A DNA stretch of 46,794 nucleotides from Bacteroidota bacterium (GTDB lineage Bacteria; Bacteroidota; Bacteroidia; Bacteroidales; UBA1715): positions 1 to 46,794 of the forward strand of contig WQTX01000010.1 of assembly GCA_009786075.1 (NCBI GenBank). Direction: 5' to 3'. Position numbers and translations under genes: made by a program. Below the pieces are notes generated by a model, which saw nothing but the letters and a program-made list of their open reading frames with translations, searched no databases and was not told the DNA's origin. This document shows positions 3,638 to 46,579 of this stretch, piece by piece (position 1 is the stretch's first letter; the number at the start of each line of letters is the position of its first letter).

Positions 3638-6130
3638 ATGAAAACCAACCCCGAACTCCAATTAGCCCTCGATTTTATACAATACACCGGCAAACATATT
3701 TTCCTGACAGGAAAAGCAGGCACCGGAAAAACCACTTTTTTACGCAAATTGCAAGAAACCTTGCCCAAACGTATGGCAGTAGTTGCGCCCACCGGCGTGG
3801 CGGCAATTAATGCTCGCGGGGTTACTATTCACTCGTTTTTTCAACTGCCCTTTGGTCCGATTTTGGGTGAATTTAAACCCGACCAACAGCGTTTTAGCAA
3901 AGAAAAAATCAATATTATCAAAAGCCTTGATTTGCTTGTGATTGACGAAATCAGTATGGTGCGCGCCGATTTGCTCGACGGCATTGATACGGTTTTGCGC
4001 CGTTTCAAAGACCGCTCGAAACCTTTTGGCGGCTTACAGCTGCTTATGATTGGCGACCTGCAACAACTTGCCCCTGTGGCAAAAGATAACGAATGGGAAC
4101 TGCTGCGCCCACATTACGATACGATTTATTTTTTCAGCAGCCACGCCCTACGTGAAACTTCGTTTGTGGGCATCGAACTGTTGGAAGTGTTTCGCCAGCA
4201 GGACACACATTTTATTTCGATTTTGAATAAAGTACGTGAAAATTGCCTTGATGCCGAAACGCTCGCCGCGCTCAATAAACGCTATATTCCTAATTTTCAG
4301 CCGAAAGACGAAGATGGTTACATTACGCTTTGCACACACAACGCGCAGGCGCAACGTATAAACGAAGGAAAATTGAATGCTTTGAAAACCGAGGAAAAAA
4401 CATTTAAAGCAACGGTACAGGGCATTTTCCCCGAATATTCCTACCCAACAGATTTTGAACTGACTTTGAAGGAAGGCGCACAAGTAATGTTTGTAAAAAA
4501 TGACCCTTCGCGCGAAAAACTGTTTTATAATGGAAAAATCGGAAAAATTGTAGAAATTACCAAAGAAGAAATTTTTGTGCAATGTCCCGACGAGGAAGAA
4601 CCGATTGTAGTTACGCCCCTCACGTGGGAAAACGTGAAATACACGCTCAACGCCGAAACCAATGCGATTACGGAAAATGTTGAGGGCTCATTTACGCAAT
4701 TTCCGCTTAAATTGGCGTGGGCAATTACCATTCACAAAAGTCAGGGTTTGACCTTTGAAAAGGCTGTGATTTCTGCCGAAGCCTCGTTTGCTCACGGGCA
4801 AGTGTATGTTGCTTTGAGCCGTTGTAAAACGCTCGAAGGAATGGTTTTGAGTGCGCCAATTCGCCAAGATAATATTTTGAACGACCACACCGTGCGTGGA
4901 TTTACACAGTATATTGAAGAAAACCGTCCCGATAAAGAACAGTTACATCTTGCCCGGATTGCCTATCAACACGAACTTTTGCGAGATATGTTTTCTTTCC
5001 AAAATTTGCAAAGGCGTTTGTTTTATATGCTAAGAATAATTGACGAAAACAAAGGCAGTTTTCCCGATTTTATGCTCAAACTGTTTGATAGACCGGCGTT
5101 GCAAACGGAAATTATTGATGTGGCAGATAAATTTCATCAACACATAAATTATCTATTGCCTACCGAGCCCGATGTGGAACAAAACGCCGCATTACAGGAA
5201 CGCATTGCCAAAGCAACACAGTATTTTTTAAATTCGGTTGTAAATATTGTTGGTATTCCATTTGAAAAAATGGATTTGGACATTGACAACAAAGAAGTGA
5301 AAAAACAAATGACTAACGCCGTAAGTCAATTGGCAGAAGAACTGCGGGTAAAATGTGAAAGTCTAACAGCTTGCCGTGAAGGTTTTTCGCTTGCAAAATT
5401 GCAAAACGCCAAAGCGGTGGCAATGATAGATGCTTCGACAAGCTCAGCAACCAAGAAAAAGAATACTTCGACAGGCTCAGCAACCGAAAAAAGCATAGGA
5501 AAAGTTACTGCCGAAATTGACGAAAACAATCTTCCAAATCGTGCACTTTTCGATGAATTGCGTGCGTGGCGAATGGAAAAATCGAAAGAATTGAATGTGC
5601 CGCCATTTGCTATTTTTTCGCAAAAAGCATTGTATGAGTTGGTTACGCATTTGCCTGCAAACAATAAAGAATTGGTACAAATAAAAGGTTTCGGCAAAAT
5701 AAAAGCACAGCAATTCGGCGAGGAAATTACTGCGGTAATTCGAGAGTATTGTCAAGAAAACGATATAACACCGGTGCTGTTTACCGACAAAGAAATTGCC
5801 CCGAAAAAATCAAAAGATGAAGATACAAAATTGGTGTCGTACACGCTTTACAAAGAGGGCAAAAGCATTGAAGAAATTGCCGCCGAACGTGGACTTGTAG
5901 CCTCTACCATCGAAGGACATTTGTCGCATTATGTAATGTTGGGCGAAATTGATATTCACGAATTGGTGTCTGCGGAAAAATTGGCTGTGATAACGGAATA
6001 TTTTACCGATGTGGACGACCCTGCGCTTGGCGCGGCTCGTGAAGTGCTTGGCGAGGAATATTCGTATGGGGAATTGCGTTTGGTGAGGGATTGGTTACAA
6101 AAAGAGCAGAATACGGTATCTATCAAATAA
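3638..6130 (+). CDS. PIF1-like AAA helicase with HRDC and C-terminal helix-turn-helix domains
   Basis: An 830-residue superfamily 1 DNA helicase. Walker A is GKAGTGKTT (25-33) and Walker B is LLVIDEISM near 100. The sensor region LLMIGDLQQLAPV follows, and the C-terminal motif AITIHKSQGLTFEKA lies near 360. After a linker, residues about 630-705 look like an HRDC domain (NRALFDELRAWR ... VQIKGFGKIKAQQFG). Residues about 735-765 form a helix-turn-helix (SIEEIAAERGLVASTIEGHL). This helicase-HRDC-HTH arrangement is common in Bacteroidota and probably acts in replication or repair. The linker contains two tandem copies of a dispersed DNA repeat that are translated (residues about 599-616). The start at 3638 gives the expected N-terminus. 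Confidence 0.9.
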   Translation: MKTNPELQLALDFIQYTGKHIFLTGKAGTGKTTFLRKLQETLPKRMAVVAPTGVAAINARGVTIHSFFQLPFGPILGEFKPDQQRFSKEKINIIKSLDLLVIDEISMVRADLLDGIDTVLRRFKDRSKPFGGLQLLMIGDLQQLAPVAKDNEWELLRPHYDTIYFFSSHALRETSFVGIELLEVFRQQDTHFISILNKVRENCLDAETLAALNKRYIPNFQPKDEDGYITLCTHNAQAQRINEGKLNALKTEEKTFKATVQGIFPEYSYPTDFELTLKEGAQVMFVKNDPSREKLFYNGKIGKIVEITKEEIFVQCPDEEEPIVVTPLTWENVKYTLNAETNAITENVEGSFTQFPLKLAWAITIHKSQGLTFEKAVISAEASFAHGQVYVALSRCKTLEGMVLSAPIRQDNILNDHTVRGFTQYIEENRPDKEQLHLARIAYQHELLRDMFSFQNLQRRLFYMLRIIDENKGSFPDFMLKLFDRPALQTEIIDVADKFHQHINYLLPTEPDVEQNAALQERIAKATQYFLNSVVNIVGIPFEKMDLDIDNKEVKKQMTNAVSQLAEELRVKCESLTACREGFSLAKLQNAKAVAMIDASTSSATKKKNTSTGSATEKSIGKVTAEIDENNLPNRALFDELRAWRMEKSKELNVPPFAIFSQKALYELVTHLPANNKELVQIKGFGKIKAQQFGEEITAVIREYCQENDITPVLFTDKEIAPKKSKDEDTKLVSYTLYKEGKSIEEIAAERGLVASTIEGHLSHYVMLGEIDIHELVSAEKLAVITEYFTDVDDPALGAAREVLGEEYSYGELRLVRDWLQKEQNTVSIK
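5433..5485 (+). repeat. Two tandem TTCGACAAGCTCAG repeats inside the helicase gene
   Basis: CTTCGACAAGCTCAGCAACC (5433-5452) and CTTCGACAGGCTCAGCAACC (5466-5485) are read in frame as STSSATKK and TSTGSATEK. They fall in the unconserved linker between helicase core and HRDC domain, so the insertion is tolerated. The same peptide appears in the DUF1573 protein at 27892-28338. Confidence 0.8.
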
Positions 6131-22214: not shown

Positions 22215-22265
22215 CATCTTTCGTGTAAGTGGCGATGATTTTTTTGATTTTTTGTTTGAAATTTA

Positions 22266-22362
22266 TACCCCTAAATCCCCTAAAGGGGACTTTTGCTCCG
22301 TGCAAACTCTGTTGTTCATGTCTTTTTCGTAGTTTTTGGAGCCCCCTTTAGGGGGTTGGGGG
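22266..22362. repeat. CCCCTAAATCCCCT inverted repeat, copy at lipoprotein 3' end
   Basis: The left end ACCCCTAAATCCCCTAAAGG continues into GGACTTTTGCTC. The right end is GAGCCCCCTTTAGGGGGTTG. It abuts the stop codon of the lipoprotein at 22363 and is very similar in both ends and core to 40049-40147. Strong G/C-rich arms would fold in RNA and could end transcription. Confidence 0.8.
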
Positions 22363-22968
22363 TTATTCTTCTACGATTGTTTTAGTTGTAATATGTTTTC
22401 CTGCATCAAAAACCGGACAATTTTCGCAATTTAAAAAAACTTTATTGTCATTACTCTTGAAAAACCGTTTCCCTTTTTTATGTTGAAATTCATAAAAATC
22501 ACAACCGCGTTCATAGTGATATATAATGCCTACAAACTTAAATGAGGCATATTTTTTAGCCCATTTTTTAGGATATTCTCTTTCTACGTAGTTATTGCCG
22601 GTAAAATAATCTTTTGCTTCATACTTGAATTTTGCACGATATTCTTCGGCATATTTTTCATATTTTTTCTGAGAAAAAACAACAATTGTACCGTTATCTT
22701 TGGCGACAAAAACATCTTCTTCTTTCTGAGTAAATTTCGTTTTTCCAAAAATTTCCTGCGCAAGAGCGGTCTGTTTTTCTTGAATAGTTTTTTCCTTTGC
22801 CACAGGAGGTGCAATGTTATACGTATTGCTCATGGTATCGGCAACAATAGTATCTTTCATTACCACAATAATACTATCGCTTATCTTCCACGCAATATCA
22901 CTTTGTGAATTTCTTTGGCAAGAGAATATTGCCAATAGCACAAATAGAATAAAAATTTGTTTTTTCAT
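22363..22968 (-). CDS. Hypothetical lipoprotein
   Basis: A 201-residue protein with a lipobox (LFVLLAIFSC, Cys17), so it is predicted to be lipid-anchored in the envelope. The mature part is Lys- and Tyr-rich. It contains a run of charged helices (KKYEKYAEEYRAKFKYEAKD) and, near the end, CENCPVFD, a CxxC that might bind metal or form a disulfide. No family recognised. The stop codon directly abuts a CCCCTAAATCC-type repeat. It is the last minus-strand gene before the pdxA run and is separated from thiG by a composite repeat. Confidence 0.65.
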   Translation of the reverse strand: MKKQIFILFVLLAIFSCQRNSQSDIAWKISDSIIVVMKDTIVADTMSNTYNIAPPVAKEKTIQEKQTALAQEIFGKTKFTQKEEDVFVAKDNGTIVVFSQKKYEKYAEEYRAKFKYEAKDYFTGNNYVEREYPKKWAKKYASFKFVGIIYHYERGCDFYEFQHKKGKRFFKSNDNKVFLNCENCPVFDAGKHITTKTIVEE

Positions 22969-35988: not shown

Positions 35989-36014
35989 TATTTTTCTTGC
36001 TTATTTTCTGCCGT

Positions 36015-37514
36015 TTAATTAATATTTTTACGATTATCCGATTTCGTATCTGTTTCATCTGTTGTTTTCGTTTCTTCGGTATTCCAATATATATACTCTG
36101 CCTTGCTTTTATCAATAGGCAAGGTTTCAAAATACAGCAATTTCGACAACAATTGAGAACGCTTATCTGCGAAAATATACCGATAGCATAGATGCTGATA
36201 CACACAATCAACAGCTGGTTTGTTTTTATATGTTTCTATTGTATCGTTATTTTGTTCGGCATAGCGCAATAGAATTTTTTCGTTATAATCAACACTGTTA
36301 AGATGATACGAAAAATCAAATTTTTCTTTCGACATATTATAGCGTGTAATTATTCCGCCCCAATTCACAAAACTGCACACAAGCAAAGTTCCGAAAAAAT
36401 ACCAAAACATTTTGTTAAACAAAAACGCATTCGTTTTTCGTTTTTGAATTTTTAAGAACGTGTAAATCAGTCCGATAAGCGACAAAATAAGAAAAGCATA
36501 CACACCCAAACGTTTGTAAGTCAACATATCGGTTTTGTAAATATATTCGGTGTTTTTTGCAAAAGCGGAAAATACCAACGCTGCATTCAATACAATCCAA
36601 ATTTTTGCTAATATTTTCACTCGGTTTGCTTTGGTGTCGAAATTAAAACCGCCACGGAAATAAAACAGTATGAGCGCAATAGCCATTATAATTGAGAAAA
36701 TTACGGTATTAACACGTTCGTGTATTTCAGTTTTTAAATTTATGCTTTGTTCAAAAAATTGCTCGTAATTGAATGTTATCACAAAAATGAGCAACAACAC
36801 ATTGAGGCACACAAATGAAATCATGCCGCTTGTGCGTTCCATTTGTATATCAATAAATGAAAATGTAGATTTCTCGGTATCAGGTGTTTTTGTAAAATCA
36901 TTTTTGAAAAGCCGGCTTGGTTTTTCGAGAAATTTACCCGAATGATTCCAAAAACTGTACATAAGATACAAGCCCAAAAGAGCTATAAGAATTACCTGCC
37001 CGATATTTATATTCCATTCCAATTTTGCAATAAAATTCGCAAAATGCTCGCTACCGCTTGCATACACGGCAAAGAAAATAATTACAAACACCAATGGAAT
37101 AACAAAATATGCAAAAAGTTTTTTCCAAAAATTGGTATTTTTCTGTGATTTTGGCAGCCATTTGTTGAATGCAAAAATGCTAAAAACAGAAAAAAGAGCA
37201 TTTATAGGAATAACAATCAGCGCAAAAACAGGCTTCAAATTCGCAGAGCGAGAACGAAAAACAAACAGCGAAAGCGATAAAACCACCGCAAAAAACGATG
37301 TCAAATCGCCATACCACGCAAATGCCACGCAGCTACCGATGCTTGCCGCCATAAGCACATAAAACGTTCGGTTCATTACTATATGATTGCTCGTAAAATA
37401 CACTAACGCAGTGAGTATCAAGCCAAAAATGGCTAAATTCAATCCAACAGATTGTTCGTAAAACAGCACTGTAAAAATGGCTGTTGTCAGGAAAATTACA
37501 TGATGTTTTTTCAT
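36015..37514 (-). CDS. DUF4153/DUF4173 multi-pass membrane protein
   Basis: A 499-residue integral membrane protein with about 12 hydrophobic helices, for example FLTTAIFTVLFYEQSVGLNL and VILIALLGLYLMYSFW. The segment TYKRLGVYAFLILSLIGLIY is characteristic of the DUF4153 family (also annotated DUF4173). The C-terminal 110 residues are soluble and charged (NSVDYNEKILLRYAEQNND and on), ending in a Lys/Thr-rich tail. Function unknown. It stands between hrpB and the radical SAM gene, with no coupling to either. Confidence 0.75.
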   Translation of the reverse strand: MKKHHVIFLTTAIFTVLFYEQSVGLNLAIFGLILTALVYFTSNHIVMNRTFYVLMAASIGSCVAFAWYGDLTSFFAVVLSLSLFVFRSRSANLKPVFALIVIPINALFSVFSIFAFNKWLPKSQKNTNFWKKLFAYFVIPLVFVIIFFAVYASGSEHFANFIAKLEWNINIGQVILIALLGLYLMYSFWNHSGKFLEKPSRLFKNDFTKTPDTEKSTFSFIDIQMERTSGMISFVCLNVLLLIFVITFNYEQFFEQSINLKTEIHERVNTVIFSIIMAIALILFYFRGGFNFDTKANRVKILAKIWIVLNAALVFSAFAKNTEYIYKTDMLTYKRLGVYAFLILSLIGLIYTFLKIQKRKTNAFLFNKMFWYFFGTLLVCSFVNWGGIITRYNMSKEKFDFSYHLNSVDYNEKILLRYAEQNNDTIETYKNKPAVDCVYQHLCYRYIFADKRSQLLSKLLYFETLPIDKSKAEYIYWNTEETKTTDETDTKSDNRKNIN

Positions 37515-37567
37515 AAAAATTGTGTTTAAATGATTTGTTAAAATTAATTATTTTTTCCGGTTTTACA

Positions 37568-38929
37568 TTAAATTTTGACTTTTGATAAAAGACTTTCCAA
37601 AAGCGGCAACATATAATTCAATTGTCCCGTTTTGATAATAAAATTCCAAACAGGCTCAAATTTTTTCCAACCGCCGGTGTAGAAAAGGTGTTTCAATTTA
37701 TGCTTGTGCGATTCGTGTTTGAAACTTGCCTTAAATGTATTCGACCACGTGTAAAACTCCTTGTATGCCCAATGATAGCCTGTCTCCAATTCTTCTGCCG
37801 ACAAATTTTTTGTGCGGAAAACCACGTGGCGCGTATCGTACAAATCCCAATTTTGCGTTAAAATTCTGCCTTGCTGTTCCATATCGCGGTAAAAAGGCGT
37901 TGAAGGGTAAGGCGTGGCAATGTGGTAGGTGGCTGTGGTAATGGCATTTTCAATTCCCCAATCAACCGTGCGACGAAAAACATCGCGGTCGTCATCGTCC
38001 AATCCGAAAACAAAACTGCCGTTAATCATAATTCCCAGCGAATGTAAGCGTTTGACGGCTTCCGAGTAATCTTTTGCCAGATTTTGACTTTTGTTGCTTT
38101 GTTTCAAATTTGAGGACGAAAAAGTTTCAAAACCGACAAAAACACTGCGCAAACCTGCCTCTGCTGCTTTTTCAATCAAATCGCCGCGCAAAATAGATTC
38201 CACCGTTGCTGCACCCTGAAACACACGGTTCATTCCGCGCATTCCACCAAAAAGTGCGCCGGCAAACGCGGTGCTGCCAAGTAAATGGTCGTCCAAAAAA
38301 TAGAGATGCCTACCCGGAAGCCGCTCAATTTCGGCAAGCGCATCATCTACTTTTTGCGTGTAAAATGATTTTCCACCCTCAAAAAATGCGTCTTTGTAGC
38401 AAAAATTACAATGATGCGGACAGCCGCGTGAAACAACTAACGAATTGGGAACTAAATACTTATTACGTTTTATCAAATCGCGGCGCACCGGTGGAATATC
38501 GTGCAATGTACGAGTGAGTGAAAAATATCTTTTTGCCGGCTTTTTGTTTCGGAAATCAGCTAAAAAACGAGGAAAACTCTCTTCGGCAGTTCCTATAAAA
38601 ATAGTGTCGGCGTGTACAGCTGCCTCGTCGGGCAACGAGGTAACGTGCAGTCCGCCCAAAACGACAAACGCACCTTTTGCGCGATAGTGGTCGGCGATTT
38701 TGTATGCGCGGAAAGCATTTGTGATATACACTTCAATCAGTACAAGTTCCGGTTCATCGTTGAGGTTGAGCGTTTCAACGTGCTGGTCTTGCAGGTCAAT
38801 TTCGTCGTCGGGCGCAAAAAATGCAGCCAAGGTTGCCAAGCCCAAAGGCGGAAACAACGAATATTTTATTGGTCGCCAAAACGGACTTTCCGCTTCTGTC
38901 AGTGCGGGTAAAATCATTTTTACTTTCAT
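37568..38929 (-). CDS. B12-binding domain radical SAM protein
   Basis: A 453-residue enzyme. The N-terminal domain (KVKMILPALTEAESPFWRPI, SLFPPLGLATLAAFF, VVLGGLHVTSLPDEA) has the Rossmann-like cobalamin-binding layout, though the usual DxHxxG base-off histidine motif is not plain. The radical SAM cluster motif C-x3-C-x2-C is SRGCPHHCNFCYK near residue 170. It is followed by the B12-SAM pattern YFLDDHLLG, VFVGFETFSS and INGSFVFGLDDDD. The protein resembles the large family acting on lipids, hopanoids or tetrapyrroles; the substrate cannot be told. It is followed on its 5' side by a composite repeat. Confidence 0.87.
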   Translation of the reverse strand: MKVKMILPALTEAESPFWRPIKYSLFPPLGLATLAAFFAPDDEIDLQDQHVETLNLNDEPELVLIEVYITNAFRAYKIADHYRAKGAFVVLGGLHVTSLPDEAAVHADTIFIGTAEESFPRFLADFRNKKPAKRYFSLTRTLHDIPPVRRDLIKRNKYLVPNSLVVSRGCPHHCNFCYKDAFFEGGKSFYTQKVDDALAEIERLPGRHLYFLDDHLLGSTAFAGALFGGMRGMNRVFQGAATVESILRGDLIEKAAEAGLRSVFVGFETFSSSNLKQSNKSQNLAKDYSEAVKRLHSLGIMINGSFVFGLDDDDRDVFRRTVDWGIENAITTATYHIATPYPSTPFYRDMEQQGRILTQNWDLYDTRHVVFRTKNLSAEELETGYHWAYKEFYTWSNTFKASFKHESHKHKLKHLFYTGGWKKFEPVWNFIIKTGQLNYMLPLLESLLSKVKI

Positions 38930-38946
38930 ACTTGTTTTACATTTAA

Positions 38947-39112
38947 AATATTACGGTGCTACGCACCTTTTTTGGTAATGTTATTAATTATTTGAACTAC
39001 AAATATTATCGGTACTCTGCACCTTTCAAAACACAAAGTGCAGAGCACTTAAATATTTGTAGCAATTATAAAATCGTTGTGTTTTTCTGAGGTGCAGAGC
39101 ACCGTAATATTT
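38947..39112. repeat. Composite GGTGC-nnn-GCACC repeat, copy 2
   Basis: The outer ends AATATTACGGTGCTACGCAC and AGGTGCAGAGCACCGTAATA are inverted copies. Two further hairpin units lie inside (ACTACAAATATTATCGGTAC; GTGCAGAGCACTTAAATATT). Its modular construction matches 23010-23158. It directly follows the sugar transferase stop. Confidence 0.82.
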
Positions 39113-39126
39113 ATTTTGATTAAATC

Positions 39127-39675
39127 TCATTTTAAATTTTTTCTTCGAAAAACGATTTGCCGAACTCGTATTTTACCGAAAATATTCATCAAAAAAGAAA
39201 TGCCGACAACTCCGAAGTCAATAAAAACATTGTTATTTTTTATGTAGCGTCTGTCCCAAAACCACGAGGTTTTCCGGTGTTGGCCGCCGTAAATTTGCGC
39301 AAATCCCGTTATGCCCGGTTTCACTCTCCACCGTATGCTATGAAAGTCGTCGTTCCAACAAAGTCGTTCAATGTCAAATTTTGTTAAAGCCCTTGGACCG
39401 ACTATGCTCATATCGCCTTTCAAAACATTGAGAAATTGAGGTAATTCATCAAGTCCTGTTTTTCTCAAAAGCCTTCCTGTTTTTGTTGGGATTTCGTCAA
39501 CCATTGTTTGAAACTTCAAAATCTGAAAGGGTTGTTTGTTGATTCCGGTTCTATCTTGCCGGAATAAAATCGAATGCCGCTCTTTGATTGTCAGTAAGAG
39601 AGCAATTATAAGCATCGGCATTGCGAAAATCAGCAATGCGATGAGCGAGAATGTGATGTCGAAAAGTCTTTTCAT
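39127..39675 (-). CDS. Bacterial sugar transferase (polyprenyl-phosphate sugar-1-phosphate transferase)
   Basis: A 182-residue monotopic membrane enzyme that starts glycan assembly by moving a sugar phosphate onto undecaprenyl phosphate. It has an N-terminal helix (MKRLFDITFSLIALLIFAMP) and RQDRTGINKQPFQILKFQTM, then GRLLRKTGLDELPQFLNVLK and GDMSIVGPRALT. It ends with VKPGITGFAQIYGGQHRKTS, then WDRRYI, the standard order of the WcaJ/RfbP catalytic core. It lacks the large N-terminal membrane domain of WcaJ, so it is a minimal PglC-like form. The sugar is unknown. Confidence 0.92.
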   Translation of the reverse strand: MKRLFDITFSLIALLIFAMPMLIIALLLTIKERHSILFRQDRTGINKQPFQILKFQTMVDEIPTKTGRLLRKTGLDELPQFLNVLKGDMSIVGPRALTKFDIERLCWNDDFHSIRWRVKPGITGFAQIYGGQHRKTSWFWDRRYIKNNNVFIDFGVVGISFLMNIFGKIRVRQIVFRRKNLK

Positions 39676-39698
39676 TGTGTTTACGTTATTAAATAAAT

Positions 39699-40010
39699 TT
39701 ACAGTAATTCTAAAGCAATAATAGCATATACAAATGCTAACGGAATGTTAATCAACAGCATAGCAATTCCTTTAAAACATTGTTTACGTTTCTCAACATC
39801 AACAATTCCCCAAATAAGAAGAGCGAATAAAATAATGAGATTGGCAGCTGCCGCCACAAATAAGTACATGTATCCACCAATAGCTAAACGGTAGGTTGCA
39901 TGGTTGTTTATTGCCACATCAAGCAAATGACCAAACATAAAAATGTTCCCGATAATAAATGACACCCAAAAAGTGTACTTTCCGATTTTTAAAGGATTTA
40001 GGTTTTTCAT
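39699..40010 (-). CDS. Hypothetical small membrane protein
   Basis: A 103-residue protein with three hydrophobic helices (YTFWVSFIIGNIFMFGHLLD, LFVAAAANLIILFALLIWGI, GIAMLLINIPLAFVYAIIAL). It lies 23 nt before the sugar transferase gene in the same direction, so co-transcription is likely. No family recognised. Confidence 0.65.
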   Translation of the reverse strand: MKNLNPLKIGKYTFWVSFIIGNIFMFGHLLDVAINNHATYRLAIGGYMYLFVAAAANLIILFALLIWGIVDVEKRKQCFKGIAMLLINIPLAFVYAIIALELL

Positions 40011-40036
40011 AAGATTTTTTTTTTAAAGTTATTGAA

Positions 40037-40924
40037 TTACGTTAATATTACCCCTAAATCCCCTAAAGGGGACTTTTGCTCTGTGGAAGTACTGTTGTTT
40101 AGGGCTATTTCGCGGCTCTGAAAGCCCCCTTTAGGGGGTTGGGGGTATTCTTTCCTATTGCGTATCAATCGAAACGACCAATACAAAATATTTAAAAATA
40201 TACCCATCAAAATGGTCATTCCCCACGCTCGCGGGTGCGCAAACGGGTTAATAATTCGAGAGCCGATGTCGTACACCAAAGCAAAAGGTTGCGAAATAAT
40301 ATCCCAACTGTTCCACCGCAAATAACGACCGAGATAAATTCCGAAACTTCCTAAAAATAAGAGAGTTATTGATAGCAACGTTACGTATTTTCGTTTCACA
40401 AAACGGCTTAGGAATTGTTCGATGTCCCACAAACTTAAAAATCCGAAAAGCAAACCCGTCCATGCAAACGACAACACCAATACTAAATCGAACCACACAG
40501 GCATTGCCAAATTCAAGCGCAAATGAAATAAATCGGTTAGAATATAAGGTGCATTGGGGAAAAACAGCAACCACACACCCATTACTGCAAAAAGGCAGAA
40601 TTTTGATTTGCACAATCGTGGTTTTAGGATTAGCAAAGTGGTTAAGCCCCATGGAATAAAGGCTAAAAAGAGATTCCAATTCAAAAACACGAACATTTTT
40701 GTGTCGGTGTAAACAAAGCGAAGCATTGAGAATGCGAAACAAAACACGGTTAATACTGCCATAAAAATTGTTTCGTTCAGGCGGGTTTTTTCAAGGTTTT
40801 CCGTCATTGCGGGCTTGACCCGCAATCTCACATCAAATACACCACTTTTTTGAGGAGATTGCGGGTCAAGCCCGCAATGACGGCGTGGATTGGGCGAATA
40901 GTCTTTTTTTAATAATTGTGTCAT
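40037..40924 (-). CDS. DUF1361 membrane protein carrying repeat-derived segments at both ends
   Basis: A 295-residue multi-pass protein. The DUF1361 core is clear: FVFLNWNLFLAFIPWGL, LLFFPNAPYILTDLFHLR, WFDLVLVLSFAWTGLLFG and SFGIYLGRYLRWNSWD. Residues about 13-41 (HCGLDPQSPQ ... RVKPAMT) are encoded by the inverted repeat at 40801-40883, and the last 35 or so (from EYPQPPKGGF) by the repeat at 40049-40147. The ATG at 40924 lies just downstream of a palindromic operator and is taken as the ancestral start; ATGs at 40807 and 40762 could serve if the repeat is not translated. Function unknown. Confidence 0.75.
   Translation of the reverse strand: MTQLLKKDYSPNPRRHCGLDPQSPQKSGVFDVRLRVKPAMTENLEKTRLNETIFMAVLTVFCFAFSMLRFVYTDTKMFVFLNWNLFLAFIPWGLTTLLILKPRLCKSKFCLFAVMGVWLLFFPNAPYILTDLFHLRLNLAMPVWFDLVLVLSFAWTGLLFGFLSLWDIEQFLSRFVKRKYVTLLSITLLFLGSFGIYLGRYLRWNSWDIISQPFALVYDIGSRIINPFAHPRAWGMTILMGIFLNILYWSFRLIRNRKEYPQPPKGGFQSREIALNNSTSTEQKSPLGDLGVILT
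40049..40147. repeat. CCCCTAAATCCCCT inverted repeat at DUF1361 3' end
   Basis: It has the same ends and core as 22266-22362 (TACCCCTAAATCCCCTAAAG, then GGGGACTTTTGCTC; right end AGCCCCCTTTAGGGGGTTGG). It is read through as the C-terminal tail of the DUF1361 protein. Confidence 0.82.
40801..40883. repeat. 29-bp-arm inverted repeat (GTCATTGCGGGCTTGACCCG family)
   Basis: Arms 40801-40829 (CCGTCATTGCGGGCTTGACC onward) and 40855-40883 are perfect reverse complements. The loop ends CTTTTTTGAG, as in the repeat at 28461-28539, although the arms differ after the first seven or so bases. It is inserted in frame near the start of the DUF1361 gene. Confidence 0.88.
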
Positions 40925-40948
40925 AGCGTATATTTTAAAATAAAAAGC

Positions 40949-40965
40949 ACTTTGAAATTCAAAGT
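40949..40965. promoter_or_regulatory. 17-bp palindromic operator upstream of the DUF1361 gene
   Basis: ACTTTGAAATTCAAAGT is a perfect odd palindrome. It lies 25 nt before the DUF1361 ATG and 17 nt after the regulator stop. A near copy lies at 42009-42025, upstream of the membrane-protein gene of the same cluster. It is a likely binding site for the winged-helix protein encoded between them. Confidence 0.65.
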
Positions 40966-40982
40966 ATAAATACAAAAAAAAA

Positions 40983-41273
40983 TTATTTAATAAGTTTTTC
41001 AAGAGCATCTAAATGTTCCTTAAAATCACGTTTTCCCAATCCGGTAATTTGATATTTGGTGTTGGGTTTTCTGCCAATAAACTGCTTAGTTGTTTGAATA
41101 TACTCCGCAGCTTCCAACGCTTTCAAGTGGCTTGCAAGATTACCGTCGGTCAATTGCAACAGCTCTTTTATGGTGTTGAAATCTGCCGCATCGTTTACCG
41201 AAAGGATTGACATAATGCCCAATCGGATTCGGCTGTCGAAGGTTTTATTGAGGTTTGCTATGATGTTTTCCAT
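40983..41273 (-). CDS. Winged-helix transcriptional regulator (ArsR/MarR-like, HTH_34 type)
   Basis: A 96-residue single-domain regulator. The order IRLGIMSILSVNDAADFNTI (helices 1-2), LLQLTDGNLASHLKALEAAE (recognition helix), YIQTTKQFIGRKPNTKYQIT (wing), then a C-terminal helix (FKEHLDALEKLI) for dimerisation is that of the small HTH_34 family common in Bacteroidota. It lies between the two genes whose upstream regions carry the CTTTG(A/C)ATTTCAAAG palindrome, so it probably represses both. It has no sensor domain and no metal-binding cysteines. Confidence 0.88.
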   Translation of the reverse strand: MENIIANLNKTFDSRIRLGIMSILSVNDAADFNTIKELLQLTDGNLASHLKALEAAEYIQTTKQFIGRKPNTKYQITGLGKRDFKEHLDALEKLIK

Positions 41274-41288
41274 AATTGTTTTTCTTTT

Positions 41289-41380
41289 GTCAGAATCAGA
41301 ATTTGCAGGATTTTAGGATTAGCAGAATTTATGAAAGATTTAATCCTATAAATTTAAAAATTCTGTAAATCCTGATTCAT
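41289..41380. repeat. CAGAATCAGAATTTGCAGGA-type inverted repeat
   Basis: The left end GTCAGAATCAGAATTTGCAG and the right end AATTCTGTAAATCCTGATTC are imperfect inverse copies with an AT-rich middle. It lies between the membrane-protein gene and the regulator and supplies the stop codon of the former (TGA at 41377-41379). Confidence 0.7.
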
Positions 41381-41985
41381 ACATTGTTTTTATCATACTT
41401 AAAATACATAATCCCCCCAAAAACAATATGCAAAACCCCAAACCCAATTGTCCACCAATAAATACCGTGGTAGAGATAAACGGCGGCAAGAAGTCCGACA
41501 ATTACTTCACAAATGCCGAGAATGTGAATTTCGCCAACGGTGTATTTCGAAGCATTTATCAATGCCAATCCGTAGAAAATAAGTGTAGTAGCGGCAAGGT
41601 AGCCAATATCGCCATTGAAAAGCAACACAAGTGAAAAAATACCGCCTGCTGCCAACGGTATCATTAAATTATACGCCGCTCGCATGGTTACTTTGTTCAA
41701 CAAATTTTGTCCGTTTTTCTTCGCCTTTCGCCAACTGAAAAATGAGATAACGCCCACTGCCGAAACCAACACCAAAAGTGCCGCCGCAACCAAAACCGCC
41801 ACTATATTCGTTCCAAAAACGTTGCTGAGCGGAATTTCACTTCGCAAATAAAGGTAAGCAAACGTTGCTCCTGCCACCGCCAAAAGCCCTGCAATAATAA
41901 GCGATAATCCATTGATTGATTGAAATTTCGACGAACGCTCCATCATTTCTCTGATGGCTTTAATGTCTTCTGTTTGTTTGTTCAT
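41377..41985 (-). CDS. Hypothetical multi-pass membrane protein of the regulator cluster
   Basis: A 202-residue protein starting MNKQTEDIKAIREMMERSSK, a short amphipathic N-terminus, followed by six hydrophobic helices (GLSLIIAGLLAVAGATFAYL; IVAVLVAAALLVLVSAVGVI; LMIPLAAGGIFSLVLLF; YLAATTLIFYGLALINASKY; ILGICEVIVGLLAAVYLY; WWTIGFGVLHIVFGGIMYF). The start at 41985 is preferred over the longer frame because the operator palindrome lies at 42009-42025. It resembles membrane proteins that commonly sit next to small HTH_34 regulators. Function unknown. Confidence 0.72.
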   Translation of the reverse strand: MNKQTEDIKAIREMMERSSKFQSINGLSLIIAGLLAVAGATFAYLYLRSEIPLSNVFGTNIVAVLVAAALLVLVSAVGVISFFSWRKAKKNGQNLLNKVTMRAAYNLMIPLAAGGIFSLVLLFNGDIGYLAATTLIFYGLALINASKYTVGEIHILGICEVIVGLLAAVYLYHGIYWWTIGFGVLHIVFGGIMYFKYDKNNV

Positions 41986-42008
41986 ATTTTTACGATATAA
42001 ATAAAAGT

Positions 42009-42025
42009 ACTTTGAAATGCAAAGC
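42009..42025. promoter_or_regulatory. Near-palindromic operator upstream of the membrane-protein gene
   Basis: ACTTTGAAATGCAAAGC differs from the site at 40949-40965 at only two positions. The flanks also agree (AAAGYA before, CA or TA after). It is 24 nt before the ATG at 41985. Confidence 0.62.
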
Positions 42026-42109
42026 AACAACAAAATATTTATATTTCCAAATGATTTTTTATTTTTTTTGAAAAAAATGATAAAAAATAAATATCTGCAT
42101 GAATTTTAG

Positions 42110-42171
42110 AAGGCGGCGACCTACTCTCCTACTGAATACAGTATCATCGGCGCAAGCGGTCTTAACTTCTC
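42110..42171 (-). pseudogene. 5S rRNA 3' fragment
   Basis: 62 nt match the 3' half of the real 5S gene (46472-46533) at 57 of 62 positions, on the same strand. The match starts exactly at the mature 3' end (AAGGCGGCGACC on the plus strand) and fades past the conserved AGAAGTTAAGACC. The five changes cluster in the variable helix and leave it able to pair. The 5' half of a 5S gene is absent. The stop codon of the nucleotidyltransferase gene lies inside it. Confidence 0.85.
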
Positions 42172-42968
42172 AGTGTGGTAATTTTCTTCCTCGTCAAATT
42201 TTCCCACGCCTCTTTTATTGTAAAGCGAAACAATTCATTCAATTTTTCAGAATCCGGCAATGTGGGTTGTTCTATAGTTGTAACATAATCCTTATAAAAT
42301 TCAATTTTTCGTTCAAGAAAATCACTTAAAATTTGATTTTTGGGCTCTTCTTTCAGTTCATCGCCGGTAATTTTCCTTGTCAGCAAATTTTGAATTTCAT
42401 CTTTTACCTGTTTGTCGGTTACTTGGCTATCTACAAGTTTTTGAAATTCCATTGGCGCCATTGTGTTGGTTTGTTTAATCCAATCGCAAGCCAAAATTGG
42501 GCGCAACACATAAAAATATTTCTTTACCCGCACAACATCTTTTTGCAAATAATCGCCAAAATTACCTCGCGCCATGTGCAAATAATGATACAAACACGAT
42601 TTGGGATTAAAATACTCTTCGGTCAATTCCCGCAACCGGTCGACAGTAGAAAATTGCTGCAAATACACTATCGGACTTCGTAACCATTCCAACATTGGCG
42701 GATTTGATTTTCTAAAAAGCCGCAATGCTTTTCGCAATTCCCAACCGGCAAAGTCAAGGTCGTTCGGTAGCATTTTTTCTTGACTATCTTTCTTAGTATC
42801 AATGCTTAAATACCAATCGGGATTGTGAACGTAAATATATCGCACGTCCCAATCACTATCGGGCGAAGCAAAACCCCATGCACGGCTGCCGCTTTCTACG
42901 GCGTATAAAATCTTTATCGCGTGCTGGTGTTCAAGTTTGAAAAGTTGGTTCTTTATTTCTTCGGTCAT
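42162..42968 (-). CDS. Predicted nucleotidyltransferase (YcgL/RlaP-like, COG3541-type)
   Basis: A 268-residue protein of the DNA polymerase beta superfamily. Its catalytic strand and helix are ILYAVESGSRAWGFASPDSD, then WDVRYIYVHNPDWYL: the GSRAWG is the G-S motif and DSDWDVR carries the metal-binding aspartates. The rest is helical and includes VRVKKYFYVLRPILACDWIK, typical of the COG3541 group. Related proteins are linked to RNA repair, but the substrate is unknown. The last residues (TLRS, stop) are encoded by the 5S rRNA fragment. It follows the DUF4143 ATPase gene by 24 nt and is probably co-transcribed. Confidence 0.85.
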   Translation of the reverse strand: MTEEIKNQLFKLEHQHAIKILYAVESGSRAWGFASPDSDWDVRYIYVHNPDWYLSIDTKKDSQEKMLPNDLDFAGWELRKALRLFRKSNPPMLEWLRSPIVYLQQFSTVDRLRELTEEYFNPKSCLYHYLHMARGNFGDYLQKDVVRVKKYFYVLRPILACDWIKQTNTMAPMEFQKLVDSQVTDKQVKDEIQNLLTRKITGDELKEEPKNQILSDFLERKIEFYKDYVTTIEQPTLPDSEKLNELFRFTIKEAWENLTRKKITTLRS

Positions 42969-42992
42969 TGATTTATATTTTTGGTATATATT

Positions 42993-44201
42993 TTATTTCT
43001 CTAACAACCAATCTATTACATTTATTTTTTGTATTCCTTTGTAAACCGTTACAGGCTCAACATCGGTAGTTAATAAAATTCGGCGGTTAAAATCTTTTAT
43101 CAACTCAAAAGGGCGTATTTCCCGTTCAAAAGTGCTTTGTTCTTTTGCTGTCCAAGCCACTTGTATATATTCCGTTTCATTGTTTTTTGTTCGTATAACA
43201 AAATCAATTTCTGTGTTGTCGGCTTTGCCAATATGTACTTTATTCTCTCGTCGCAGGAGTTCCAAATAGACAATATTTTCAAGATTATGCCCCAAATCTT
43301 GATTGATTTTGTCGCCGAGAAAGAATTTTTTTAATCCTAAATCAACGCTGTAATATTTTTCTTGTGTTTGCAAAAGCCCCTTTCCTCGCAAATCAAAACG
43401 CCGTACTTTGTAGAACATATACGCATCAACAACAGAATCAATGTAATTTGCAACGGTATGGTGTGAAATTGCAAGATTGTTATTCGTTATCAGGTAGTTG
43501 GTAATTTTCTTGGTTGAAACGACCGAGCCAACAGAATCAAAAAGAAACGAAAGGGTTTTGTTAAAATGGTCTTCGTTTTTCCATTTATTACGCACCAAAA
43601 CATCTTTTTGAATAATGTTTTGAATAACATCAAGAATGTAATTTCGTATCAGATTTTCGGGTAAATCGAAAATTCCCGGCATTCCGCCGGTGTCTAAATA
43701 TTTGGCAAATAATAAATCGGTGCGCGAAATATCCGATTGCGTCAAAAGAAATTCTTTGAACGAAAACGGCAAAATATGAATAGAAATATAGCGACCCGTT
43801 AGCAAAGTGCCGAGTTCGCTTGAAAGCAAATAAGCGTTTGAGCCGGTAACATAAACATCAATATTTGGCTTTACATACAGTCCGTCAACCAAACGCTCAA
43901 ACTCTTTAACTTGCTGTATTTCATCAAGAAAAACATAACACCGTTTTCTTGTATCTAACTGACCTGTAATGTAATAATACAAAGCATCGAGGTCATTCAA
44001 ATATTTGCGATTTTCGTAATCTTCAAAATTGAGGAATACAATTTGATTTTCTTTCACTCCGTCGGCACGCAAATAATCTCTGAACATTTGCATTACGGTT
44101 GATTTTCCGCAACGTCTAACGCCTGTAAGCATTTTAATCAGGTTTTTGTCCCGCAGCGCTTTCAGCGTGTTCATATAATCTTTTCGTTCTATCTGTATCA
44201 T
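42993..44201 (-). CDS. AAA ATPase with DUF4143 domain
   Basis: A 402-residue ATPase common in Bacteroidota and archaea. Walker A is GVRRCGKST near residue 27, Walker B is RCYVFLDEIQQV near 90, sensor region VYVTGSNAYLLSSELGTLLTG with the conserved GSN and GRY (GRYISIHILPFSF). The C-terminal DUF4143 domain (LGHNLENIVYLELLRRE, then TEIDFVIRTKN) resembles a PD-(D/E)XK nuclease fold, with ENIVYLELLRR and EIDFVI in the expected order. The family is often suspected of mobile or selfish behaviour. It is first in an operon with the nucleotidyltransferase gene. Confidence 0.9.
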   Translation of the reverse strand: MIQIERKDYMNTLKALRDKNLIKMLTGVRRCGKSTVMQMFRDYLRADGVKENQIVFLNFEDYENRKYLNDLDALYYYITGQLDTRKRCYVFLDEIQQVKEFERLVDGLYVKPNIDVYVTGSNAYLLSSELGTLLTGRYISIHILPFSFKEFLLTQSDISRTDLLFAKYLDTGGMPGIFDLPENLIRNYILDVIQNIIQKDVLVRNKWKNEDHFNKTLSFLFDSVGSVVSTKKITNYLITNNNLAISHHTVANYIDSVVDAYMFYKVRRFDLRGKGLLQTQEKYYSVDLGLKKFFLGDKINQDLGHNLENIVYLELLRRENKVHIGKADNTEIDFVIRTKNNETEYIQVAWTAKEQSTFEREIRPFELIKDFNRRILLTTDVEPVTVYKGIQKINVIDWLLEK

Positions 44202-44217
44202 AATACTTTTATTTTAT

Positions 44218-44251
44218 AGCCCAAACTTTCTGTTTTTAATAAGTTTGGGCT
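44218..44251. promoter_or_regulatory. Inverted repeat at the DUF4143 ATPase transcription start
   Basis: AGCCCAAACTT (44218-44228) and AAGTTTGGGCT (44241-44251) are perfect 11-bp arms around a 12-nt loop. They begin two bases past the -7 box TACTTTTG (minus strand, 44253-44260). Position suits either an operator or an mRNA leader hairpin. Confidence 0.65.
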
Positions 44252-44252
44252 G

Positions 44253-44260
44253 CAAAAGTA
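44253..44260 (-). promoter_or_regulatory. TAnnTTTG -7 box of the DUF4143 ATPase operon
   Basis: TACTTTTG on the minus strand, 51 nt before the ATG at 44201. Confidence 0.6.
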
Positions 44261-44328
44261 CGGATTATTTTAGATAATCAAAACAAAAAATATTTTTTAT
44301 TACCACTTACTAATTGAACTTACTCTCT

Positions 44329-44751
44329 TTATGTTTTGTTGTTTGGGCAAATTAATAGGTATAACCTATAAAATAAAACGACGGCGGTACAACCGCCGCC
44401 GAACCGGGAATCCATTTTGCAAATCATTTTGGTAACAGGATTGCCGGCTTTTATTTTGCGCAGATTGAGCACCGAATCGCAATTTTGCGTAATATAATAC
44501 ACCGTAGCTTTGGACAACCCCGCTTCAAGAAAAACTTCGGTTAAGTTTTTGTTTTTCGGAAAAGTTGATTCAATTACCTCAAAATCATTCACTTGTATGC
44601 CATATTTTATGATTGTTTCTTCTTGTACCTCTTCTTGCACTTTTTCTTCTTCATTATTACATGAATATATTGAAAATATGAAAAGTAAAGAGAGTAAGCA
44701 GTTTGCAAGTTTTTTAGCTCCGCTGAGCTCGTACTTTGTACTTCGGTTCAT
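44329..44751 (-). pseudogene. Truncated M23-peptidase-type lipoprotein
   Basis: A 140-codon frame with a lipobox (FIFSIYSC) and a Glu-rich linker. It then has one domain (IKYGIQVNDFEVIESTFPKN, then LTEVFLEAGLSKATVYYI, and LRKIKAGNPVTKMI). That domain matches the N-terminal region of Bacteroidota M23 (LytM) peptidoglycan metallopeptidases as I know them. The catalytic HxGxD and HxH domain is missing. The frame continues only into hairpin DNA (GGCGGTACAACCGCC and ATAGGTATAACCTAT on the plus strand), which gives the tail GGGCTAVVLFYRLYLL. The N-terminal YELSGAKK may also be repeat-derived. Probably a broken gene. Confidence 0.6.
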
Positions 44752-44910
44752 TGTATCTGATATTAATTGATATTAGGATATTCATAGATATTCAATTGTC
44801 TAACGGTCTTGTGTCTATTAATCTTATATCTAAACAAACCACAAAAGTACAAATTAATTACAAACAGCGAAGTGTACCGACAGTTAATTATAAACACCTT
44901 TTGTTTACTT
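44752..44910. repeat. Low-complexity intergenic repeats upstream of the M23-type fragment
   Basis: GATATTAATTGATATTAGGA units and GTCTAACGGTCTTGTGTCTA units, as at 27690-27890. No gene seen. Confidence 0.55.
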
Positions 44911-45324
44911 CTATCGCCTAACCAACGGATAAAACGCCTGTGGAATATAGATAATTTCGTGCGAATGTGCGCTTACAATAATCGAAAAAACATCGAATTG
45001 CGCCTCGCCTTCAAACGAAGAATAGTTGATATACGCCTGCGCCGCTTGTATCAACAATCGCTGTTTCGCCATAGTTATCGCCTCTTCCGGAGCAACCATA
45101 AAATTACTCGAACGTGTTTTTACTTCCACAATGTGGAGTATTCCATCTTTTTGCGCTATAATATCAATTTCTTTGTGCGCACTACGCCAATTGCGGTGCA
45201 GAATACGAAATCCCCTTTCTTGCAAATATGCACATGCAAACTCTTCGCCTTTTCGTCCTAATTCGGTGCGGTGTTTTTGTTGGGTTGGGGTTAGTTTGAA
45301 TTTCTTTTCGGTTTTTGTGTTCAT
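44911..45324 (-). CDS. yraN: YraN family protein (UPF0102)
   Basis: A 137-residue protein with the endonuclease-like fold of the UPF0102 family. The core is LGRKGEEFACAYLQERGFRI, HRNWRSAHKEIDIIAQKDGI and LHIVEVKTRSS, which has the E, D and ExK spacing of PD-(D/E)XK nucleases. The C-terminal part (KQRLLIQAAQAYI) is typical. The ATG at 45324 follows a TATTTTTG box by 19 nt; the longer frame to 45495 is repeat DNA. Biochemical role is not established for this family. Confidence 0.9.
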   Translation of the reverse strand: MNTKTEKKFKLTPTQQKHRTELGRKGEEFACAYLQERGFRILHRNWRSAHKEIDIIAQKDGILHIVEVKTRSSNFMVAPEEAITMAKQRLLIQAAQAYINYSSFEGEAQFDVFSIIVSAHSHEIIYIPQAFYPLVRR

Positions 45325-45343
45325 TGGGTTTGTCTGTTTTTTA

Positions 45344-45351
45344 CAAAAATA
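45344..45351 (-). promoter_or_regulatory. TAnnTTTG -7 box of yraN
   Basis: TATTTTTG on the minus strand, 19 nt before the yraN ATG, supports that start. Confidence 0.6.
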
Positions 45352-45387
45352 CTTTTTTTCTCGAAAAAGCAACCCAGCATTACACAC

Positions 45388-45420
45388 AAAAAAAGCAATG
45401 ACTTTGCAAACATTGCTTTT
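45388..45420 (-). terminator. Rho-independent terminator after the zinc-ribbon gene
   Basis: On the minus strand AAAAGCAATG and CATTGCTTTT (10-bp arms, 45391-45400 and 45411-45420) form a hairpin followed by a run of T. It lies 65 nt beyond the zinc-ribbon gene stop. Two smaller hairpins (CAGGCAAAGCCTG; CTAAGGCTGTGCCTTAG) lie between the gene and it. Confidence 0.65.
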
Positions 45421-45484
45421 GTGCAGGCAAAGCCTGTTTCTATAAAACCGACTAAGGCTGTGCCTTAGTCCGTCAAAAATTGAC

Positions 45485-46294
45485 CTACATGCCATAAATT
45501 ACTTCTTTGCCACAACAAGTACAGCGTTTCCCCATCATATAACCGGGTCCATTGCGAACCCTTACATTATGTTGCCAATTATGTTCTTCTATGTTAAATC
45601 CACATATACATTTATCAATACATTTATTTTTATTTGATAGTTCATGTTTCTCCTCTTCGCTTTTTCCACAGACAGTACAATATTTTATATGATAATACTT
45701 ATTTGCACTTGTCCCCCATTCTCCATAGATTTCTTCATACTGTATTCTATATTTCCATATATGGCCAATACTTCGTTCTTCGCCACAAGTAGAACACCTA
45801 TCTATGCACTCGTTTTCCAATTTAACCCACTTGTGTCTAATACGTTGCTTTCCACAGATAGAGCATTCTTCTATACATTTATTTTCTAAAAACGTCCATT
45901 TGTGTCTAATGCGCTGTTTTCCACAAATAGAGCAGTTTTCTACACACTCGTTTTCCAAATATAGCCATTTATGAACACCTTCATCTCTTGTAATACCACA
46001 TAATTCACATTTGCAGCCGCCATTCCATTTATGTAGAATGTCACGTACGGCTCCACATTGTACACATTTACAGCCATTCCACGCATGGATGTCACGCACG
46101 GCTCCACATTGCACACATTTACAGCCATTCCACGCATGGGAAATCGTCTGTTCTTTACCACAGATAGAGCATTTTTCAACACATTTTCCTTCAACAGGAA
46201 CATATTGGTGCTCATCTTCGTAATCTCGTATTTTTCCGCACTTTTCGCATTTACAGCCATTCCATTTATGAACAAATAAACATTTCCAATTCAT
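45485..46294 (-). CDS. Multi-zinc-ribbon repeat protein
   Basis: A 269-residue protein made of repeated CxxC units and no other recognised domain. Four units of the type H(K/A)WNGCKCxxCGxxRD come first (residues about 9-24, 53-100). Three units of the type LENxCxxxCSICGKxRxxHKW follow, and then looser CxxC pairs (YCTVCGKSEEEKH, KCTCCGKEVIYG). Each unit could bind one zinc ion in a ribbon or knuckle. Units 2 and 3 come from a 51-bp tandem DNA duplication. Similar repeat proteins occur in gut Clostridia and Bacteroidota, without known function. No signal peptide; probably cytosolic. It lies next to the rRNA operon end. Confidence 0.75.
   Translation of the reverse strand: MNWKCLFVHKWNGCKCEKCGKIRDYEDEHQYVPVEGKCVEKCSICGKEQTISHAWNGCKCVQCGAVRDIHAWNGCKCVQCGAVRDILHKWNGGCKCELCGITRDEGVHKWLYLENECVENCSICGKQRIRHKWTFLENKCIEECSICGKQRIRHKWVKLENECIDRCSTCGEERSIGHIWKYRIQYEEIYGEWGTSANKYYHIKYCTVCGKSEEEKHELSNKNKCIDKCICGFNIEEHNWQHNVRVRNGPGYMMGKRCTCCGKEVIYGM
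46038..46139. repeat. 51-bp tandem duplication in the zinc-ribbon gene
   Basis: 46038-46088 and 46089-46139 differ at two positions only. Each encodes 17 residues, HAWNGCKCVQCGAVRDI. The near identity points to a recent event and to repeat-number variation. Confidence 0.85.
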
Positions 46295-46427
46295 ATTTTT
46301 TCGCTATTTATAAAGATTTTCGTTTCAACTTTCCACTTTGTTGTCCGCTAGCTCTGTTCCCTGCTGACGCACAACAATCAAATACATGCAAAAATATATA
46401 ATTTTTTTGAATAATTCACAAAAAAAC

Positions 46428-46462
46428 AAAACCTGTTAAGTTTCGAAAACTTAACAGGTTTA
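46428..46462 (-). terminator. rRNA operon terminator
   Basis: AACCTGTTAAG and CTTAACAGGTT form a strong stem, with loop-side bases TTTCGAAAA. On the minus strand the stem is followed by TTTTGTTTTTTT. It lies about 10 nt beyond the 5S 3' end and is a textbook Rho-independent terminator. Confidence 0.8.
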
Positions 46463-46471
46463 GTATAAAAA

Positions 46472-46579
<108 letters not shown>

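Follow-up and report, generated by a model that had tools for sequence, protein, structure and literature searches.

A 5S rRNA gene fragment at the end of an rlaP gene, probably the scar of a rearrangement in a Bacteroidota genome

Gene content around the fragment

The window analysed here is a complete contig (C10, 46,794 nucleotides) of a Bacteroidota draft genome of 176 contigs and 3.18 Mb. It carries an intact 5S rRNA gene followed by genes for a Cys-rich repeat protein, YraN (UPF0102), a lipoprotein remnant, an AAA_14/DUF4143 ATPase, and the nucleotidyltransferase RlaP, the last of which runs into a partial second 5S sequence lying in the same orientation as the neighbouring rrn operon (Table 1). 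The Pfam-unmatched protein encoded directly behind the intact 5S gene (positions 45485-46294) is 269 aa long and made of repeated C-x-x-C units, resembling zinc ribbons.

Table 1. Coordinates of the features discussed in the text
Feature	Position	Strand	Evidence or remark
HTH_34 regulator gene, partner of the membrane-protein gene	40983..41273	-	PF13601; pair adjacent in homologous loci
Membrane-protein gene downstream of the fragment	41377..41988	-	Usually paired with an HTH_34 gene in homologous loci
3' half of a 5S rRNA gene (pseudogene scrap), up to the mature 3' end	42110..42174	-	blastn
rlaP-family nucleotidyltransferase gene, 268 aa, last codons and stop from the 5S fragment	42162..42968	-	PF10127, E 8e-92
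AAA_14/DUF4143 ATPase gene upstream of rlaP	42993..44201	-	Pfam
Duplicate of the C37 rrn flank (yraN and M23 peptidase gene), cut at 44408	44408..45420	-	87% identical over 1 kb to C37 (L113) 894-1890
Terminator hairpin behind the intact 5S	46429..46461	-	46420-46480 folds at -18 kcal/mol, z -5.5
Intact 5S rRNA gene	46470..46579	-	RF00001, 87.1 bits, model positions 1-120

RlaP proteins are described as Pol-beta nucleotidyltransferases associated with RNA ligases, with a predicted role in replacing lost nucleotides before the ends are ligated (PMC7824862). The window protein resembles this family (PF10127) in its complete domain, which scores 307.8 bits against a cut-off of 23 over profile positions 1-248 of 249 (residues 1-248), and departs from it in a C-terminal tail ending in 5S-derived codons and in the absence of RNA ligase families among the window proteins scanned with Pfam. 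Homologs 73-78% identical to it occur in metagenome-assembled genomes (MAGs) labelled Cyclobacteriaceae, Runella, and Bacteroidetes, together with a partial 68% match in a Chitinophagaceae MAG, whereas none of 13 genomes from the same family, among them two of the genus, contains a relative at E <= 1e-30. An adjacent RNA ligase, forming a repair operon, is typical of phage RlaP systems but is not required for the fold family. Three complete homologs terminate about six residues past a conserved EAW motif, where the window protein continues with ENLTRKKITTLRS. Given these shorter tails in distant homologs and the absence of the gene from the 13 family relatives, the most likely history of rlaP is horizontal acquisition and replacement of its native end. 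The reading frame continues without interruption into the 5S fragment; the latter supplies the third base of a Leu codon followed by AGA AGT TAA, that is, the end of L, then R, S, and the stop, as a preliminary description of this DNA had proposed. No Rfam family, 5S included, was found around the closest rlaP homologs or around four more distant ones.

The membrane-protein gene on the other side of the fragment was not found in the 13 family relatives, and none of the 11 loci checked for its homologs has a 5S gene beside them.

The DNA between the two 5S sequences also contains a second breakpoint. On contig C37, a Gp49-like/HTH pair, yraN, and a complete M23 peptidase gene encoding 406 aa come after the 5S gene; in the window, the duplicated flank retains only a 140-aa remnant ORF of this peptidase gene, cut after about 103 matching codons. 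The genome thereby holds two copies of yraN, each adjoining a 5S gene (in the window and on C37), while the 13 relatives show one copy each. Strain contamination as the origin of the second yraN was considered and rejected, as nothing else in the first 12 kb of C37 recurs in near-identical form elsewhere in the assembly. The truncated yraN/M23 duplicate, with its breakpoint inside the same 4.3 kb, thus shows independently of the fragment that the flanks of rrn operons have been rearranged here, which supports the earlier suggestion of a rearrangement between rRNA operons. A 45-nt stretch within the duplicate (44707-44751) is 100% identical to positions 36822-36866 of contig C13 and overlaps a 33-nt insertion, relative to C37, at the start of the truncated peptidase gene.

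Extent, probable source, and sequence changes of the 5S fragment

The minus strand from 42174 to 42110 reads ACTGAGAAGTTAAGACCGCTTGCGCCGATGATACTGTATTCAGTAGGAGAGTAGGTCGCCGCCTT and is identical to the intact 5S gene (46472-46536) at 59 of 65 positions (91%; blastn E-values from 6e-19 to 8e-20), a level of similarity that excludes chance. Five of the six differences lie in the last 62 bases; counted from GAGAAG onward, that is, without the first three bases, the identity is 57/62, exactly as counted in the preliminary description. That description also placed one boundary exactly at the mature 3' end of 5S rRNA, and the two indeed coincide to within about 2 nt (GCCGCCTT, with divergence thereafter). 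The opposite break falls inside the 5S gene, near position 44-46 of the Rfam model. The fragment occurs once in the genome and differs from all three of its 5S copies, the other two of which sit at the starts of contigs C37 and C47 (L113 and L114, positions 1-96). These three copies themselves vary in the loop of helix IV, which reads CACTAAGTG on C10 and CATTTCGTG on C37 and C47, the latter form being found also in a second genome, G001.

Within its own genus, the fragment is identical at 60 of 65 positions to the 5S gene of G002 and at 59 to those of G001 and of its own genome, against 54 and 56 of 65 for the more dissimilar 5S genes of G003 and G007. Judging from this proximity to the 5S of its own genus, which exceeds that to the 5S of the other genomes of the order searched, its source was probably a 5S gene of this lineage. 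A search of 393 genomes of the order retrieved 5S genes, complete or cut by a contig end, at all 29 loci fetched from relatives; no second internal 5S scrap was seen among them, and no relative shows the arrangement of the locus that preceded the event.

The preliminary description had held that the five differences fall in the variable helix and preserve its pairing, as would be expected of a functional but diverged 5S gene and not of random decay. The helix IV hairpin does hold four of them. Outside it lies the fifth (GATGGTA to GATGATA), probably in loop E to judge by its position; it affects a residue that never varies among the 28 other distinct 5S 3' halves of the order, a set collected by requiring the motif GAGAGTAGG but not the positions compared here. 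Two more substitutions alter residues invariant in the same 28 sequences, namely CTG[C/G] to CTGT and [TC]GG to TAG before GAGAGTAGG, so that both GGTACTG[C/G] and the [TC]GG preceding that motif, kept in 28/28 of the others, are broken in the fragment. Pairing in helix IV is retained, as claimed, but through one-sided changes only (U.G to U-A and C-G to U.G) and without any double compensatory change; two neutral transitions readily yield such a pattern. Compared with the nearest 5S, that of G002, the 62 nt contain four differences, all of them transitions and three of them from G/C to A/T.

The fragment alone scores 21.9 bits with RF00001 (model positions 44-116 of 120), below the gathering cut-off of 38 and below the 26.6 bits of the equivalent stretch of the true 5S, and this score is obtained only when the fragment is cut out, cmscan making no 5S call in its natural context. 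Its predicted fold is not more stable than that of shuffled sequences (z 0.56), which is weakly informative, since the corresponding part of the true 5S likewise shows no excess stability (z 1.50). The 3' flank differs as well. The terminator hairpin of the intact window 5S is also present behind the 5S genes of C37 and C47, and a T-rich run with a hairpin follows the 5S genes of this genome (three copies), G001, G002, G003 (two copies), and one of those of G007, whereas neither was found behind the fragment. With three changes at positions invariant in 28 other sequences and the terminator missing, the idea of a functional source set against random decay is not supported, and decay accounts for the changes better than selection does. 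Truncated, altered at invariant positions, and yet matched at E ~1e-19, the sequence has the properties of an rRNA pseudogene fragment and looks like a real but ordinary 5S scrap without sign of function.

Origin of the junction

In our view, the fragment likely has no function: illegitimate recombination would have left it as a scar at the former end of an rrn operon, and it would now be decaying. Such recombination would have rearranged the DNA beside an rRNA operon and fused horizontally acquired DNA that included rlaP with the interior of a 5S gene, with loss of the part of the old 5S/rrn copy upstream of the joining point. An in-frame TAA within the first ten bases of the joined 5S would then stop rlaP, thanks to which the gene keeps its complete catalytic domain and gains only a slightly longer C-terminal tail, and the remaining 62-65 bases would drift without selection. 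The capture of 5S sequence as a stop codon is a consequence of the in-frame TAA and not evidence of function. In a parsimonious though unproven version of these events, a block comprising the ATPase gene and rlaP would have taken the place of whatever lay between the peptidase gene and the interior of a second 5S gene, so that the truncations of both would stem from one single event. This block may be composite, because in the homologous loci (L016-L019) no copy of the ATPase gene was found close to rlaP. The order of events, and the DNA of an rrn copy as the source, are what we infer from the present arrangement. Both sides of the junction are typical of this genome, the left with a repeat of more than 20 copies and the right with the C37 duplicate. 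No 16S or 23S remnants were found near the fragment, nor any 23S match beyond chance within 36000-46460. Of all the features, only the mature 3' end without terminator would not be expected from a simple deletion scar: the loss of the T-run and terminator requires a second breakpoint, or a deletion that ended at the mature RNA end only by chance.

That same feature is what the preliminary description's other proposal, the capture of an RNA copy, would explain. The 5S rRNA would have been reverse transcribed from its mature 3' end, the enzyme would have stopped about half way, and the 5'-truncated cDNA would have been inserted behind rlaP. An exact mature 3' end, a truncated 5' end, and the absence of terminator, T-run, and other flanking gene DNA have the shape of a retro-copy, although a DNA event is compatible with them too. 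Beyond the clean 3' end, we found no positive evidence for this proposal, and we regard it as improbable. No target-site duplication could be recognised by eye at the flanks of the fragment, and only one reverse transcriptase was found in the genome, that of a diversity-generating retroelement, whose errors are adenine-specific. Leaving aside the base adjacent to the breakpoint, at most one difference between the fragment and a 5S copy of the genus falls at a template A; capture by the resident enzyme is rejected, as this A-specific element would not leave the changes seen. Quite improbable, too, is the complete scenario, in which a horizontally acquired gene owes its new C-terminus and stop codon to the chromosome's capture of a reverse transcript, truncated at its 5' end, of its own mature 5S rRNA; if true, the captured copy would be rare evidence that a structural RNA has been reverse transcribed in a bacterium. 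The retroelement itself (L154, contig C14, 2268-5969) is apparently working: its 132-nt variable (3939-4070) and template (4698-4829) repeats differ at 11 positions, all at template adenines. Its target protein fuses an AbiH domain, of phage abortive infection, to an FGE-sulfatase domain, with the variable repeat as the 3' end of the latter, and the gene in between carries an HRDC domain.

The geometry of the locus also recalls genomic islands inserted at the 3' ends of RNA genes, where foreign genes are bounded on one side by an intact RNA gene and on the other by a direct repeat of that gene's 3' half, which ends at the gene's 3' end and has the same orientation. A mobile element integrated at the 3' end of the 5S gene would make the intact 5S and the fragment the two boundaries of a 4.3 kb island. 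Several observations render this unlikely. No integrase or recombinase family was detected among the proteins encoded at 42175-46470 (Pfam; two proteins had no Pfam match), and the terminator is on the wrong side, since integration should leave it behind the fragment and not behind the intact 5S, which keeps the one common to the C37 and C47 genes. The island would moreover include yraN, whose only other genomic copy, on C37, also follows a 5S gene. The locus also departs from such islands in having a 5S gene in place of a tRNA or tmRNA gene, and a limited search of the literature turned up no report of 5S as an attachment site.

It is very unlikely that the contig is an assembly chimera wrongly joining two pieces through 5S sequence. 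The assembly is a draft with 5.8% estimated contamination, assemblies are prone to break at rrn genes, and an rrn operon lies at the end of this contig too; however, the fragment lies 4.6 kb inside the contig and differs from all 5S copies of the genome, the rlaP frame is continuous into it, and the sequences on both sides belong to this genome. Finally, a role of the fragment in the rlaP mRNA, as a 3'-UTR structure, a substitute terminator, or a decoy for 5S-binding proteins, is highly improbable despite its place directly behind the stop codon and the part of the 5S hairpin that it retains, as its fold does not exceed that of shuffles, no terminator was found at it, the 5' half of the 5S is missing, three invariant positions are changed, and the homologous rlaP loci have no Rfam match.

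Relation to other 5S-derived sequences

As a recombination scar, the fragment resembles rRNA pseudogenes arising from rrn rearrangements in being a partial, diverged copy in a rearranged neighbourhood, oriented like the rrn operon, and differs from them in its very small size, its clean mature 3' end, and the stop codon that it gives to a coding gene. Eukaryotic 5S-derived retroelements such as Cassandra (PMC10853983) likewise place 5S-derived sequence outside the rRNA locus, but here there is a single unique scrap, without element structure or a family of copies. The literature searches on 5S scraps or 5S attachment sites in bacteria gave nothing close. The interest of such a scar would be local: it indicates that a horizontally acquired gene can gain its stop codon from rRNA-gene debris and that rrn operon flanks have been rearranged in this lineage, and it illustrates that resemblance to rRNA within a reading frame does not on its own make a sequence a functional RNA. 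Elsewhere in the window, an interspersed repeat of about 105 nt, present in more than 20 copies in the genome, occurs at 22250-22370 and 40044-40152; the copy at 40044 supplies a DUF1361 gene with its C-terminal codons and stop, in much the same way as the 5S scrap does for rlaP.
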